A stretch of DNA of 6,209 nt from Bacteroidota bacterium (GTDB lineage Bacteria > Bacteroidota > Ignavibacteria > Ignavibacteriales > Melioribacteraceae): assembly GCA_021812745.1 (NCBI GenBank), contig JAKAMS010000157.1, positions 1 through 6,209 on the forward strand, in the 5' to 3' direction. Numbering within the stretch: position 1 is the stretch's first letter; each line of letters starts with the position of its first letter. Below, in pieces: positions 772-5,489 of this stretch. Below the pieces are notes generated by a model. The model had not been told where the DNA came from. It did no database searches and worked only from the letters and a program-made list of their open reading frames with translations. The position numbers were made by a program, and so were the translations under genes.

Positions 772-802
772 TTGACAAAACCGGATTTCTGTTATACATT
801 TG
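772..802 (+). promoter_or_regulatory. promoter of the trp leader-trpB2 unit
   Basis: TTGACA at 772-777 supplies the upstream element. TACATTTG at 795-802 matches the Bacteroidota -7 consensus TAnnTTTG exactly, with 20 bases between TTG (772-774) and TA. This is the best promoter match in the window. The transcript should start near 806-810, immediately before the leader ATG at 811, so the leader peptide would have a 5' UTR of a few bases at most. Confidence 0.7.
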
Positions 803-810
803 CAACCAAG

Positions 811-879
811 ATGACAAACGAAAAGAACATAGCAAATAAAAATTGGTGGTGGTGGAGAAATATTTCTCTGCTATCCTAA
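811..879 (+). CDS. trpL: trp leader peptide, 22 aa with four consecutive Trp codons
   Basis: A 22-codon ORF runs from ATG 811 to TAA 877-879. It starts MTNEKNIANKN, is followed by TGG TGG TGG TGG at 844-855, and ends RNISLLS. Four tandem codons for the rarest amino acid, just downstream of a promoter and just upstream of a U-tract hairpin and a tryptophan synthase gene, are the hallmark of a ribosome-mediated attenuator; the peptide itself need have no function. No SD is visible before the ATG (CAACCAAG), and the predicted transcription start is only a few bases upstream, so initiation may be leaderless. A ribosome waiting at any of the Trp codons would reach to about 856-867, leaving 867-876 free to pair; one at the stop codon would cover it. 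The ORF is too short for usual gene callers. Confidence 0.9.
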   Translation: MTNEKNIANKNWWWWRNISLLS

Positions 880-933
880 TGCTTTAAATAGATTTTAACA
901 ACAAGCCGTGGATGGTAGAACCGTTCACGGCTT
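848..933 (+). promoter_or_regulatory. trp attenuator: pause hairpin (1:2) and antiterminator (2:3)
   Basis: Two alternative helices can be drawn from the sequence. Hairpin 1:2 pairs 848-859 (GGUGGUGGAGAA) with 864-875 (UUCUCUGCUAUC): 12 bp, four of them G-U, with an AUAU loop. Antiterminator 2:3 pairs 867-876 (UCUGCUAUCC) with 910-919 (GGAUGGUAGA): 10 bp with two G-U and no mismatch. Segment 3 is the upper 5' side and loop of the terminator at 903-937, so 2:3 and that terminator exclude each other. Segment 1 lies within the Trp codons and segment 2 is the last codons of the leader ORF, the spacing needed for ribosome stalling to choose 2:3 over 1:2. The architecture matches the classic enterobacterial trp and his attenuators. 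Confidence 0.85.
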
Positions 934-937
934 TTTT
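903..937 (+). terminator. attenuator terminator T1 (3:4)
   Basis: AAGCCGTGGATGG (903-915) pairs with CCGTTCACGGCTT (921-933) over 13 uninterrupted bp, two of them G-U, around a UAGAA loop. A run of six T (932-937) overlaps the stem base. This is a strong Rho-independent terminator upstream of trpB2, and its 5' arm is the target of the leader-encoded antiterminator. Its 3' arm (segment 4) also has an exact complement downstream at 944-953. Confidence 0.9.
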
Positions 938-943
938 GTATAC

Positions 944-978
944 AGCCGTGAACTTCCATTCAGCGGCTTTTTTATTTT
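944..978 (+). terminator. second tandem terminator T2 (5:6)
   Basis: AGCCG (944-948) pairs with CGGCT (964-968), and TGAA (949-952) with TTCA (959-962), with G963 bulged and a CUUCCA loop. Six T (968-973) and then ATTTT follow. It resembles T1 in sequence: AGCCGTG recurs at 904 and 944, and a C(A/AG)CGGCTTTTTT tail recurs at 926 and 961, so it may be a duplicate. Its 5' arm (segment 5) can instead pair exactly with the T1 3' arm (923-932 with 944-953), which would abolish both hairpins together. Confidence 0.72.
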
Positions 979-998
979 ATACATAATAGGAGGTTCAC
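948..998 (+). promoter_or_regulatory. trpB2 ribosome binding site with SD-sequestering helix (5:7)
   Basis: AGGAGG at 988-993 lies five bases before the trpB2 ATG and is the strongest SD in the window. GUGAACUUCC (948-957) can pair with GGAGGUUCAC (989-998): 10 bp with a single G-U, covering the SD except its first base and running up to the start codon. The strand that hides the SD is the same segment 5 used in T2 and in the anti-T1 helix 4:5. Pairing is seen by hand; translational control is inferred. Confidence 0.6.
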
Positions 999-3181: not shown

Positions 3182-5392
3182 TTAGTTTACTCCAATTTCT
3201 TTTAGTAATGTATCTGCACCACCGATTTTATCCATTACCCATAAAACGTAACGGATATCAACGCCAATTGAGCGGCTGTATGATTCATTCCAAGCAAAGT
3301 CATTTATTGTTGCTTCAAATGCACGGTCAAAGTTAACGCCTATCAAATTTCCATAAGCGTCAAGAACCGGACTGCCGGAATTTCCGCCGGTAGTATCCAT
3401 ATTATAAAGCATTGCAACCGGAAGTTTGCCGCTCTTCTTACTCACATATTTCCCAAAGTCTTTCTTAGCATAGGCAGCGCGGAGTTTATCGGGAATTACA
3501 AAATCCTCATCACCGGTAGCGCCTTTTTCAATTACGCCGTCAATAGAAGTAAACGGCTCCATATAAACAGCATCAGCTGGATTGTATCCTTTAATATATC
3601 CGTATGTAAGCCGCAGCGTACTGTTTGCGTCGGGAATAAATCCTACCTGTCCGGCGGGCATGTTGGTTTTTTTCCATTCCATTTTTACATCAACAAGATC
3701 GCCATAAAGTTTGTTCAGCTTCCCTTCGTTTTTCTGGCTCTCTTTATCACTGGCTTGAGTTTGCATTTTAATTTTTTTTGCAAAAATAAAAAGCGGGTCC
3801 TGCATTTCGGCAATCTCTTTCGGCGATTTCTTTAAGAGTGAATCAAAAAATTCTTTATCCCGGATTTTGGAATTTGAAATGTTATTAGAAACAAAATCTT
3901 GAAAAGTTTCTTCCGGATGTATTCCGTTACCTTCTAGGATTTCATCAACAGCTACTATGCGCGATGATTCCTTAAATCCATTTGCATCCATTAACATTTT
4001 GACTAGCATTGTTTCTTCAAAGTCGGGGTTGTAATTCTGTTTTATAGATTCAATTCTGCTTAGAGTCTGCTTAATATTTTTTTCTTGATATGCCGGGCTT
4101 CTTTCTTCTTCCGGTTTCTGCATCTCGTCAGCATAGCTAAGAATAAAGTTTGCTAATGAAAGAGTTGTTGAGAAAGAATTAATCTGTCTTAACCACAAGT
4201 CCGCTTGAGCATTTTGATTGACCAAATCAAATACATTATGAATCTCTTCCAGCAAATTTCCGTATTTGGCTTTCAGCTGCGGATTGGAATTGATAAAATT
4301 CTGAAGTTGTTTTTCCTCTTCTTGTTTCTGTGCGATGAGATTTATCTTTTTTAGTCCTTTAATTTTTCCTTGATAATTTTTCATCGTGTTCGCTAATCCT
4401 TTTATCCGGCTGGCAAATGCAAGTGTAAGTTCTTTGTTGCCTGCGCTGATTTCCTGCATTGTCTCAATAGCATACTGATATAAATTGGAAATGTATGGAA
4501 GTAAATAATCCTGTTGATATTTCATATACTGAGATGGACGGTGACGAAAAGTTCTTCCAGGATAACCAAGTTGGAAAACAAAATCTCCCGCTTCAACTCC
4601 ATTCGGATTGATTTTTAAAAACTTTTTCGGTTTAAATGGGACATTCTCTTTAGAGTAAGTTGCAGCTTTGCCGTCTGGTGCAACATAAGCGCGCATGATT
4701 GAAAAATCACCTGTGTGGCGCGGCCAAACCCAGTTATCCGTTTCACCGCCAAAGTTGCCAATTGATTGTGGCGGCGCAAAAACAAGTCTTACATCACGTA
4801 TTACACGGTACTTAAACAAAACATAAGTTTTACCTGCAAACATTTCTGAGACATCGGCTACGATAGATTCTTTTTCGTTTGTAGCAGCATCTGATAACTC
4901 TTTAGTCTTTTGTGCGATCATTTTTGTGCGTTCAACGGGGTCGGTAATGTTTTTAATAGCATCAAGAATTACATCGGAAACATCTTGATATGATTCGGTA
5001 ATTTTGCATGTATAACCTTGCGAAGGTATCTCTTCTGCTTGAGTTTTTGCGTAGAATCCATTCTCAAGATAATTTTTTTCTACTGTGCTCGCGCGTGTAA
5101 TCGCGCCGAAAGCACAATGATGATTTGTAATAATCAGTCCGTTTTCGGAAATGAATGATCCGGTGCAACCGCTCAATTGTACCAATGCATCAACGAGACT
5201 TACTCCGTTTGGGTTGTAAACTTCTTTCGTGTCAATTTTTAATCCTGCTTTTTGCAGATCAACTTTATCAATTTCACTCAATGGATACATTCCTTCTTCC
5301 GGAGAAGCTGGAATCATTCCTAAAATAAATGTAAGCGAAAAGGTAATTGTAAAAAGTTTCAAAAATTTGGATATCCAATGACTGCGCAGCAT
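3182..5392 (-). CDS. S46 family dipeptidyl-peptidase, DPP11-like (Asp/Glu-specific)
   Basis: The 736-residue exported serine peptidase should remove dipeptides from the N-terminus of oligopeptides outside the cytoplasm. A signal peptide (LFTITFSLTFILGMIPAS after a basic N-region) leads to the mature-end motif EEGMYPLSEI typical of S46. The triad is the His in TNHHC (91/92), an Asp in GGETDNWVWPRHTGDF (D219) and S672 in GGNSGSPV. A long helical insertion between the Asp and Ser parts matches the S46 cap domain. Arg690 lies 18 residues after the Ser (NFDR), the place where DPP11 has Arg and DPP7 has Gly, so cleavage after Asp/Glu at P1 is predicted. I chose ATG 5392 because GGAG lies five bases upstream and the signal peptide follows directly. 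The frame stays open to ATG 5473, but that start would put 27 extra residues before the signal and lie upstream of the likely promoter. Confidence 0.93.
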   Translation of the reverse strand: MLRSHWISKFLKLFTITFSLTFILGMIPASPEEGMYPLSEIDKVDLQKAGLKIDTKEVYNPNGVSLVDALVQLSGCTGSFISENGLIITNHHCAFGAITRASTVEKNYLENGFYAKTQAEEIPSQGYTCKITESYQDVSDVILDAIKNITDPVERTKMIAQKTKELSDAATNEKESIVADVSEMFAGKTYVLFKYRVIRDVRLVFAPPQSIGNFGGETDNWVWPRHTGDFSIMRAYVAPDGKAATYSKENVPFKPKKFLKINPNGVEAGDFVFQLGYPGRTFRHRPSQYMKYQQDYLLPYISNLYQYAIETMQEISAGNKELTLAFASRIKGLANTMKNYQGKIKGLKKINLIAQKQEEEKQLQNFINSNPQLKAKYGNLLEEIHNVFDLVNQNAQADLWLRQINSFSTTLSLANFILSYADEMQKPEEERSPAYQEKNIKQTLSRIESIKQNYNPDFEETMLVKMLMDANGFKESSRIVAVDEILEGNGIHPEETFQDFVSNNISNSKIRDKEFFDSLLKKSPKEIAEMQDPLFIFAKKIKMQTQASDKESQKNEGKLNKLYGDLVDVKMEWKKTNMPAGQVGFIPDANSTLRLTYGYIKGYNPADAVYMEPFTSIDGVIEKGATGDEDFVIPDKLRAAYAKKDFGKYVSKKSGKLPVAMLYNMDTTGGNSGSPVLDAYGNLIGVNFDRAFEATINDFAWNESYSRSIGVDIRYVLWVMDKIGGADTLLKEIGVN

Positions 5393-5397
5393 AAATT

Positions 5398-5447
5398 CTC
5401 CTAGATAGGTTGATCCAAAAATAATATTATGTTGAAGAAAAACGAAA
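5398..5447 (-). promoter_or_regulatory. candidate promoter and SD of the S46 peptidase
   Basis: On the minus strand TATTTTTG (5423-5416) fits TAnnTTTG, and TTTC (5447-5444) stands 20 bases upstream at the -33 position. GGAG (5401-5398) lies five bases before ATG 5392. A start near 5410 gives a 5' UTR of about 18 bases and places the promoter inside the longer reading frame, supporting the 5392 start. Confidence 0.5.
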
Positions 5448-5489
5448 TCAATGGAAAATGTATTGTTTCCCACTTAAATGGAGGAAATT

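Follow-up and report, generated by a model that had tools for sequence, protein, structure and literature searches.

What tells a cell to express a TrpB2 gene that stands apart from any trp operon, and what is such a gene kept for? The DNA analysed here, a stretch of 6,209 nucleotides from a genome of the Ignavibacteria (the window), carries a single trpB2 of this kind. For the lone TrpB2 of Pyrococcus horikoshii, another selective function 'has not been identified yet', and assays were unfavourable to the idea of a serine deaminase (PMC1854888). The window gene is assigned by two family models (Table 1); the classical trpB model gives it 170 bits, under the cut-off of 392, and the enzymatic role of TrpB2 is taken from published work on the family (PMC11535334). 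We hold with high confidence that a core ribosome-mediated Trp attenuator lies before this stand-alone gene, one that probably switches trpB2 on only when tryptophan is short.

The leader and its alternative helices

A sequence-only reading of this DNA had proposed a four-segment Trp attenuator at 811-937, ahead of the stand-alone trpB2. This was confirmed on re-checking the anatomy in the sequence, and the coordinates given for the leader ORF and three helices were all borne out, with standard pairs at 12/12 positions of helix 1:2 (848-859/864-875), 10/10 of 2:3 (867-876/910-919) and 13/13 of 3:4 (903-915/921-933). The reading had further described 3:4 as followed by six U; the helix and the count of U (932-937) stand, but two of the U fall inside the 13-bp stem. 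Four features by which we recognize a Trp attenuator are found together: a leader ORF with tandem Trp codons (WWWW, 844-855), mutually exclusive and covarying helices 1:2, 2:3 and 3:4, of which 1:2 is the weakest, an intrinsic terminator between leader and gene in the window, and a downstream gene serving the same amino acid, with TrpB2 models above cut-off. The yebC relative upstream is on the opposite strand and reads away from the leader, and terminator 1 is therefore not that gene's own.

Table 1. Features of the window (positions without prefix) and of trpE leaders in fetched trp-operon regions (positions with locus prefix)
Feature	Position	Strand	Remarks
Predicted promoter	772-802	+	TTGACA 772-777; TACATTTG 795-802, Bacteroidota -7 consensus TAnnTTTG
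Leader peptide ORF	811-879	+	22 codons and stop; translation MTNEKNIANKNWWWWRNISLLS
Sensor, four tandem Trp codons (TGG x4)	844-855	+	
Segment 1	848-859	+	partner 864-875; 90.9% of cells paired, 35 distinct rows
Segment 2	864-876	+	ends at leader stop codon; partner is segment 1 or 910-919
Segment 3	903-919	+	partner is segment 2 or segment 4
Segment 4, 3' arm of terminator 1	921-933	+	
Terminator 1 (3:4 hairpin)	903-937	+	-21.1 kcal/mol; U-run 932-937
Segment 5, AGCCGTGAAC	944-953	+	perfect 10-bp complement of segment 4 part 923-932, GTTCACGGCT
Candidate terminator 2	944-973	+	hairpin 944-968 (-9.2 kcal/mol), U-run 968-973
Candidate anti-Shine-Dalgarno	948-957	+	complement of 989-998; 0/300 shuffles as low
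trpB2 Shine-Dalgarno region, GGAGGTTCAC	989-998	+	GGTTCA before start
trpB2, 448 aa	999-2345	+	NF009057 734 bits (cut-off 366); TIGR01415 669 bits (cut-off 519)
trpE-leader ORF	L191:9446-9538	-	
trpE-leader ORF	L193:4513-4596		
trpE-leader ORF	L195:12117-12200	-	
trpE-leader ORF	L196:3600-3689		
trpE-leader ORF	L197:14145-14228	-	
trpE-leader ORF	L198:13431-13526	-	
trpE-leader ORF	L199:11650-11733	-	
trpE-leader ORF	L200:4944-5027		

Dinucleotide shuffles of 618-998 never yielded WWWW in a plus frame (0/5000), and WWW once in 5000. The fold energy of 844-940, -39.5, compares with -19.2 +/- 3.2 in shuffles, that is 6.3 standard deviations under the shuffle mean, with 0/500 as low, and the 2:3 duplex beats 300/300 shuffles of segment 2. 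The expectation that the helices covary in orthologues held for 2:3, 3:4 and, less clearly, 1:2 among the 36 relatives that entered the core alignment and covariance model. These 36 of 46 loci contribute 35 distinct rows; L104, L108, L110, L111, L113, L114, L115, L117, L119 and L190 were left out as too different to align. In helix 2:3, 93.7% of cells pair and 5/10 pairs show both-side changes over the 35 distinct rows, and its covariation score of 0.365, against 0.251 in shuffles, is reached by 0/500 of them, a comparison in which kinship alone may lift sequences above the shuffles without any structure. Sliding the 2:3 partner by one to three columns lowers the pairing to 28-55% (maximum 54.6%), and further pair types are no more numerous than in shuffles (144/500 reach the same count). 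For 3:4, 95.6% of cells are paired and both-side changes occur at 3/13 pairs. The corresponding 4/12 pairs of 1:2 are not above shuffles in number (178/500 reach the same), and slid versions of this helix retain pairing of up to 67.8%. The letters differ in more distant lineages. Over all pairings within a clade, 2:3 energies average -17.5 kcal/mol in A, -13.2 in B and -20.1 in C, against -9.3 to -12.5 kcal/mol between clades, so that A and C stand out in the swap, while pairing within B (-13.2) is hardly better than with C partners (-12.5). Clade A is the window's own, comprising 22 loci with TrpB2 79-100% identical.

Folding with the Trp codons excluded, a check suggested by the sequence-only reading, did not reveal a switch: the plain minimum-energy structure remains 3:4, because in full-length RNA this helix is the more stable one. 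When synthesis has reached 920 and the mRNA is covered as far as 865, the best fold is 2:3; at 945 under the same cover it is back to 3:4, and free RNA to 920 folds best as 1:2. In such predicted folds the switch is visible only under limited RNA length.

The footprint of a ribosome usually extends about 12 nt past the first base of the A-site codon. We propose that RNA polymerase begins just 5' of the leader ATG. Where charged tRNA-Trp is ample, the ribosome would reach the stop codon (877-879) and cover segment 2, and after its departure 1:2 would form; with segment 2 either covered or held in 1:2, 3:4 is expected to form and transcription to end at about 937. A ribosome stalled at any of the four Trp codons would on the other hand cover the mRNA to 865 at most, breaking 1:2 and leaving 867-876 free. 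Helix 2:3 could then form, by which segment 4 would be released and transcription would continue.

The 5' end of the leader is likewise predicted. The -7 consensus used here is that reported for Bacteroidota (PMC7366714). The element lies 8 nt from the leader ATG in the window and 4 nt from it in L004, L006, L008, L090 and L203. In the promoter alignment, which covers 21 of the 22 clade A loci (L012, without leader, was left out), 13/21 rows have the exact TAnnTTTG 4-8 nt before the leader start; in six others a looser variant stands at a distance of 2-11 nt, and two have neither. With the -7 element so close to the ATG, the leader is predicted to be leaderless or nearly so. Transcripts with 5' UTRs under 10 nt are uncommon, about 3.7%, in B. 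thetaiotaomicron (PMC7366714). No -7 element precedes the leader in L013 and L015, in which a tRNA-Lys(TTT) gene ends 5 nt (L013:4554-4634) and 7 nt (L015:4733-4815) before the likely leader start. Leader and trpB2 seem co-transcribed with the tRNA in these two loci, and as the tRNA lies directly before, with no promoter, its maturation could form the 5' end.

Distribution of the leader among TrpB2 loci

TrpB2 loci were assembled from four sources. A genome scan supplied the best 80 of 407 relatives; at class level, 391 genomes sampled from a larger group were searched and 269 of them gave a match of some kind, as did 76 of the 79 genomes searched at family level; further loci came from fetched regions. 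After removal of duplicates the set comprised 177 loci, window included, each with at least 150 nt upstream. Among the best 80 of the 407 relatives, the TrpB2 records nearest to the window are titled Melioribacter, Stygiobacter, Ignavibacteria or Bacteroidetes, in keeping with the Ignavibacteria-like genome guessed in the sequence-only reading. A Trp-run leader, scored as a short ORF within 300 nt upstream with at least three Trp in six codons, was detected in 57/177 loci, namely in 46 of the 56 with TrpB2 at least 66% identical and in 11 of the 121 more distant ones. By the same rule, 4/3520 shuffled upstream sequences and 2/106 control gene starts in the same loci scored; in both of the latter, the rule had picked up the trpB2 leader, read from an in-frame ATG further 5'. 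Of the 57 leader loci, 56 (all but L029, and with the window included) have a hairpin and a U-rich tract behind the leader. Orthologues without the Trp run had been named as a test of the attenuator; in clade A, the leader is kept in 21/22 loci, L012 being the exception.

At 66% identity or above, L012, L023, L024, L025, L026, L031, L100, L101, L107 and L125 lack a counted leader. A Trp-rich ORF is present further upstream in L023, L107 and L125, and L100 and L101 hold Trp-rich sequence that the leader rule missed. In L012, the 300 nt upstream of trpB2 have no Trp leader but hold a site resembling a promoter and a hairpin resembling a terminator, which ends CTGTTCACGGCTTTTTT.

The covariance model of the element gave 29 strong matches in the 79 family genomes, one per genome (E <=4e-7). 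Of these, 28 are directly 5' of a TrpB2 match, and the remaining one (G372) touches a contig end. A strong match is present in 28 of the 30 family genomes with TrpB2 at 66% or more, the exceptions being G012, source of L012, and G425, whose TrpB2 locus has less than 150 nt of upstream sequence. By the same model, the element is absent from 12/12 family genomes with 60-64% TrpB2. Thus, it is not general to TrpB2.

Leaders also precede TrpB2 in records named after other groups, Calditrichota or Caldithrix (L023, L040) and KSB1 (L042), and in records titled Neomarinimicrobiota (L029) and Flavobacteriia (L060), which suggests that the arrangement is old or has arisen more than once. The letters of these five leaders are unrelated; a hairpin and U-run stand behind the leader in L040, L042 and L060, and by eye in L023. 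Another TrpB2 group (62-66% identity; L122, L127, L128, L131, L133, L136, L137, L142 and L148) has short ORFs ending WWP... or TWPWRR, 85-220 nt upstream of trpB2. In several of them GGCCTC...GAGGCC spans the last codons and a U-run is absent; Trp control in this group may be translational or work through an arrest peptide.

Between terminator 1 and the trpB2 start codon

The element seems to continue past 937 up to the trpB2 start codon, a part that the sequence-only reading lacked. Segment 5 complements segment 4 in the window as none of 300 spacer shuffles does, with 10 cross pairs in the fold. Once released by 2:3, segment 4 may pair with segment 5, and terminator 2 would thereby be blocked; the 4:5 helix might in addition keep segment 5 off the trpB2 ribosome-binding site, to a degree depending on the species. 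We lean, if only slightly, towards the existence of such a 4:5 relay.

The comparison of relatives bears on both arms of this proposal. Complementarity of 4:5 at p <=0.05 against spacer shuffles is found in 16/16 segment-5-bearing clade A loci, 0/5 other leader-bearing clade A loci, 14/15 of clade B and 5/8 of clade C. The counts for pairing of segment 5 with the Shine-Dalgarno region (5:SD) at the same level are 14/16, 0/5, 0/15 and 3/8, respectively; two of the eight clade C loci enter both sets of counts with a misplaced start codon. For L113 and L116, the clade swap test used the ATG that follows the automatically assigned start codon, whereas the leader survey, the shuffle comparisons and the opening-cost calculation kept the latter. 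By one criterion, a second terminator accompanies segment 5 in 8/16 of the clade A loci that bear it (the window and seven others), and the other 8/16 keep segment 5 without such a terminator. In clade B it is present in 15/15 loci. Segment 5 is absent from L006, L009, L012, L090 and L091, and L010 has a degenerate copy; with six clade A loci devoid of an intact segment 5, the relay is not needed everywhere.

The letters at the two sites vary together. GGTTCA precedes the trpB2 start in 16/22 clade A loci and 0/106 other starts (L001-L022, L056). Together with GTGAA(C/T) in segment 5, it is found in 16 of the 22 loci; six have neither, and 0/22 have one alone. On a TrpB2 tree built from the 22 clade A loci and 13 of clade B (all but L211 and L212), without clade C, either label needs three changes, of which the well-supported branches force only one, and losses of both are placed in L010 and in the L006/L009/L012/L090/L091 branch. 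Within clade A, 4:5 shows both-side changes at 0/10 pairs and 127/500 shuffles reach its score, because segment 4 is almost invariant there. Part of the 5:SD covariation stems from rows without segment 5, and the 5:SD swap does not discriminate, clade C spacers giving -14.7 with clade A start sites and -15.8 within C.

To open the start site of the window costs 5.1 kcal/mol with 3:4 and 4.8 with 2:3, a difference of 0.3, and the translational arm thus receives no backing there from this calculation. The two states differ by 4.1-5.5 kcal/mol in L004, L007, L011, L013 and L014. The calculation is however non-specific, as large differences are also obtained in clade B without any 5:SD pairing (6.3 in L017 and 7.4 in L096), and L005 goes in the opposite direction (-1.3). 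With nearly equal opening costs, the second terminator is the likelier output in the window, and we doubt that the translational arm acts in the window itself. From these sequence patterns we conclude that selection probably acts on segment 5, both for its pairing with segment 4 and for at least one of the two outputs.

A strong contender, to which we give somewhat less than an even chance, is a plain four-segment attenuator with incidental parts after 937, terminator 2 being a decayed tandem copy of terminator 1, so that segment 5 resembles segment 3. Indeed, GCCGTG is common to segments 3 and 5, although the better match for segment 4 is segment 5 (GCCGTGAAC) and not a copied segment 3 (GCCGTGGATGG). 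The loss of an intact segment 5 from 6/22 clade A loci agrees with incidental parts, yet segment 5 is retained in the 8/16 loci that by the criterion used have no terminator 2. Likewise, the lack of both-side changes in 4:5 within clade A and the small difference in start-site opening between the states of the window would be expected, whereas the joint variation of segment 5 and the start-site letters would not, and the strong terminator 2 of all 15 clade B loci would keep the gene off always, unless blocked.

Two further explanations replace the core itself, and both appear very improbable. A riboswitch of the RF04312 'trpB motif' type, or a protein-bound leader, would respond to a small molecule instead of tRNA charging. 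Among Rfam families RF04312 scores best, at 30.2 bits with hairpin and terminator at 851-942, but this is about half of its gathering score of 59, and the first hairpin consists of Trp codons, with letters that covary with segment 2 while the Trp run stays. The motif resembles the present element in a hairpin with the anti-terminator in its right shoulder, a terminator thereafter and a position sometimes 5' of trpB; it is known from other phyla, Firmicutes and Fusobacteria, the text available to us mentions no leader peptide, and its authors leave a classic attenuator possible (PMC11109978). Equally remote is a TnaC-like arrest peptide that senses free Trp via the nascent chain. The leader is short and Trp-bearing, and the distant TrpB2 group has the ORFs ending WWP or TWPWRR; within the window's clade, on the other hand, neither the residues next to the Trp run nor the end of the peptide are constant, which fits codon sensing, and stalling at high Trp would presumably have the wrong sign for a synthase gene.

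Returning to the ribosome-mediated attenuator, the support is drawn from sequence and comparison: the leader, the Trp run, the covarying helices, the conservation, the segment 5 complementarity and an operon-less relative. Tentatively, and with rather less assurance than for the relay taken singly, we propose an extended attenuator class, in which one stalled ribosome would act through a chain of helices (2:3, then 4:5) to override two successive terminators and, in part of the clade, to open the ribosome-binding site, all in a near-leaderless mini-gene that would be the sole control of Trp biosynthesis left in operon-less species living on the indole of their neighbours.

The trp operon, possible indole salvage and known attenuators

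The closest genome compared, G023 (locus L056), is 91.7% identical in DNA over the whole window, and has trpE, trpD, IGPS, trpB1 and trpA matches on one contig. In this operon, trpE is preceded by a separate WWWW leader with a terminator (L191, Table 1), and trpB2 there does therefore not share the leader of the operon. A DAHP synthase-like gene was noted by eye at L191:3902-4933 (-), upstream of trpB1 in the same operon. Short Trp-rich ORFs are present just 5' of trpE in 8/10 fetched trp-operon regions (Table 1), L194 having none and L192 beginning inside trpE. A terminator-like hairpin lies between the Trp ORF and trpE in the four that were read (L191, L193, L195 and L198), and in these four, by eye, a piece at the stop codon complements the loop and the beginning of the 3' arm (CTCAGTGA with TCACTGAG, or variants of these). 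No Rfam match at gathering level was obtained for the L191 trpE leader. That the trp-operon leaders are close copies of the trpB2 leader is ruled out by the single strong model match per genome.

A trpA match above cut-off is present in 19/27 genomes. In 7/27 (G001, G002, G013, G015, G016, G020 and G242), no trpA reaches the cut-off and trpE-like matches are weak (119-188 bits). These seven genomes also lack an IGPS match and a trpD above cut-off; six of them have no trpB1 above cut-off, and G242 has no TrpB1-like match. The two flank genes of the operon are side by side in G242, 18 bp separating their aligned parts; they lie within a 507-kb contig, away from its ends, and the junction (L252:12623-16678 against L191:103-12000) holds no remnant of the trp operon; the order of flank, operon, flank is kept in G004 and G005. 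The G242 TrpB2 is 90% identical, and its leader, helices, terminator 2 and start-site letters are intact (L082). G020 has one flank gene with 3.8 kb beyond it, in which trpE, trpD, trpB1 and trpA matches are absent, and in the remaining five genomes the flank-gene searches gave no useful match. As the operon is a single locus, missing contigs may explain some of the absences, but not that of G242.

On the simplest interpretation, TrpB2 uses external indole to make Trp. Once produced, the enzyme would turn indole, imported or leaked from the main pathway, into Trp. In B. thetaiotaomicron, TrpB2 confers a cross-feeding benefit that the authors ascribe to indole use (PMC11535334), archaeal TrpB2 is cited for indole salvage (PMC11085991), and in Pyrococcus horikoshii a lone TrpB2 remains after loss of the other trp genes (PMC1854888). 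The latter parallels the present case in TrpB2 being kept, and differs in that the host is an archaeon, with no leader or attenuator mentioned in the text at hand (PMC1854888). An attenuator kept across Ignavibacteria and in an operon-less relative marks TrpB2 as a Trp supplier and makes the indole-salvage role directly testable.

Enterobacterial trp operons have ribosome-mediated attenuators, with tandem Trp codons, exclusive helices and an intrinsic terminator, all of which are alike here. The trp attenuators of Corynebacterium and Streptomyces similarly comprise a leader peptide with tandem Trp codons, exclusive helices and a terminator (PMC1262725). In contrast to all of these, the present element serves a single trpB2 outside any operon, in Ignavibacteria, and adds a near-leaderless start and a segment 5 linked to a second terminator and the start site. 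Judged from sequence, function and anatomy would be those of a classical Trp attenuator, to which a putative relay is added. If real, the relay would illustrate one way of extending an attenuator, with a single stalled ribosome governing a second terminator and possibly translation as well.

The Rfam 15 scan returned 0 gathering-level families in the window, and only two tRNA matches in 14 relatives. Nearest in name are RF04312 and RF01692. The latter, Bacteroid-trp, is described by Rfam as a tryptophan peptide leader RNA of Bacteroidetes, as here (PMC2864571), but the window scores 22.3 bits against a gathering score of 49. According to a 2010 survey, such leaders were known only in Proteobacteria and Actinobacteria before its Firmicutes cases (PMC2965389). 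An open-licence literature search over titles and the beginnings of abstracts gave, among the matches listed, no attenuation in the TrpB2 family and no Trp leaders of Ignavibacteria. C. diphtheriae has a trpB2A operon with a candidate attenuator, a name that alone does not place the gene in the TrpB2 family (PMC1262725).

For the added layer, the nearest precedent comes from Bacillus subtilis: in its vmlR leader, a stalled ribosome governs a terminator and a hairpin partly covering the Shine-Dalgarno sequence. This leader senses antibiotics and not an amino acid, and the text consulted mentions no second terminator (PMC9226507). The 5' end of the leader RNA coincides with the leader ATG in trpL of Sinorhizobium meliloti, there in the main trp operon of an alphaproteobacterium (PMC7298713). 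Further along the window, the minus strand at 3182-5473 encodes a relative of the Dpp7 dipeptidyl-peptidase (NF053519, 458 bits, far under the cut-off of 1200).
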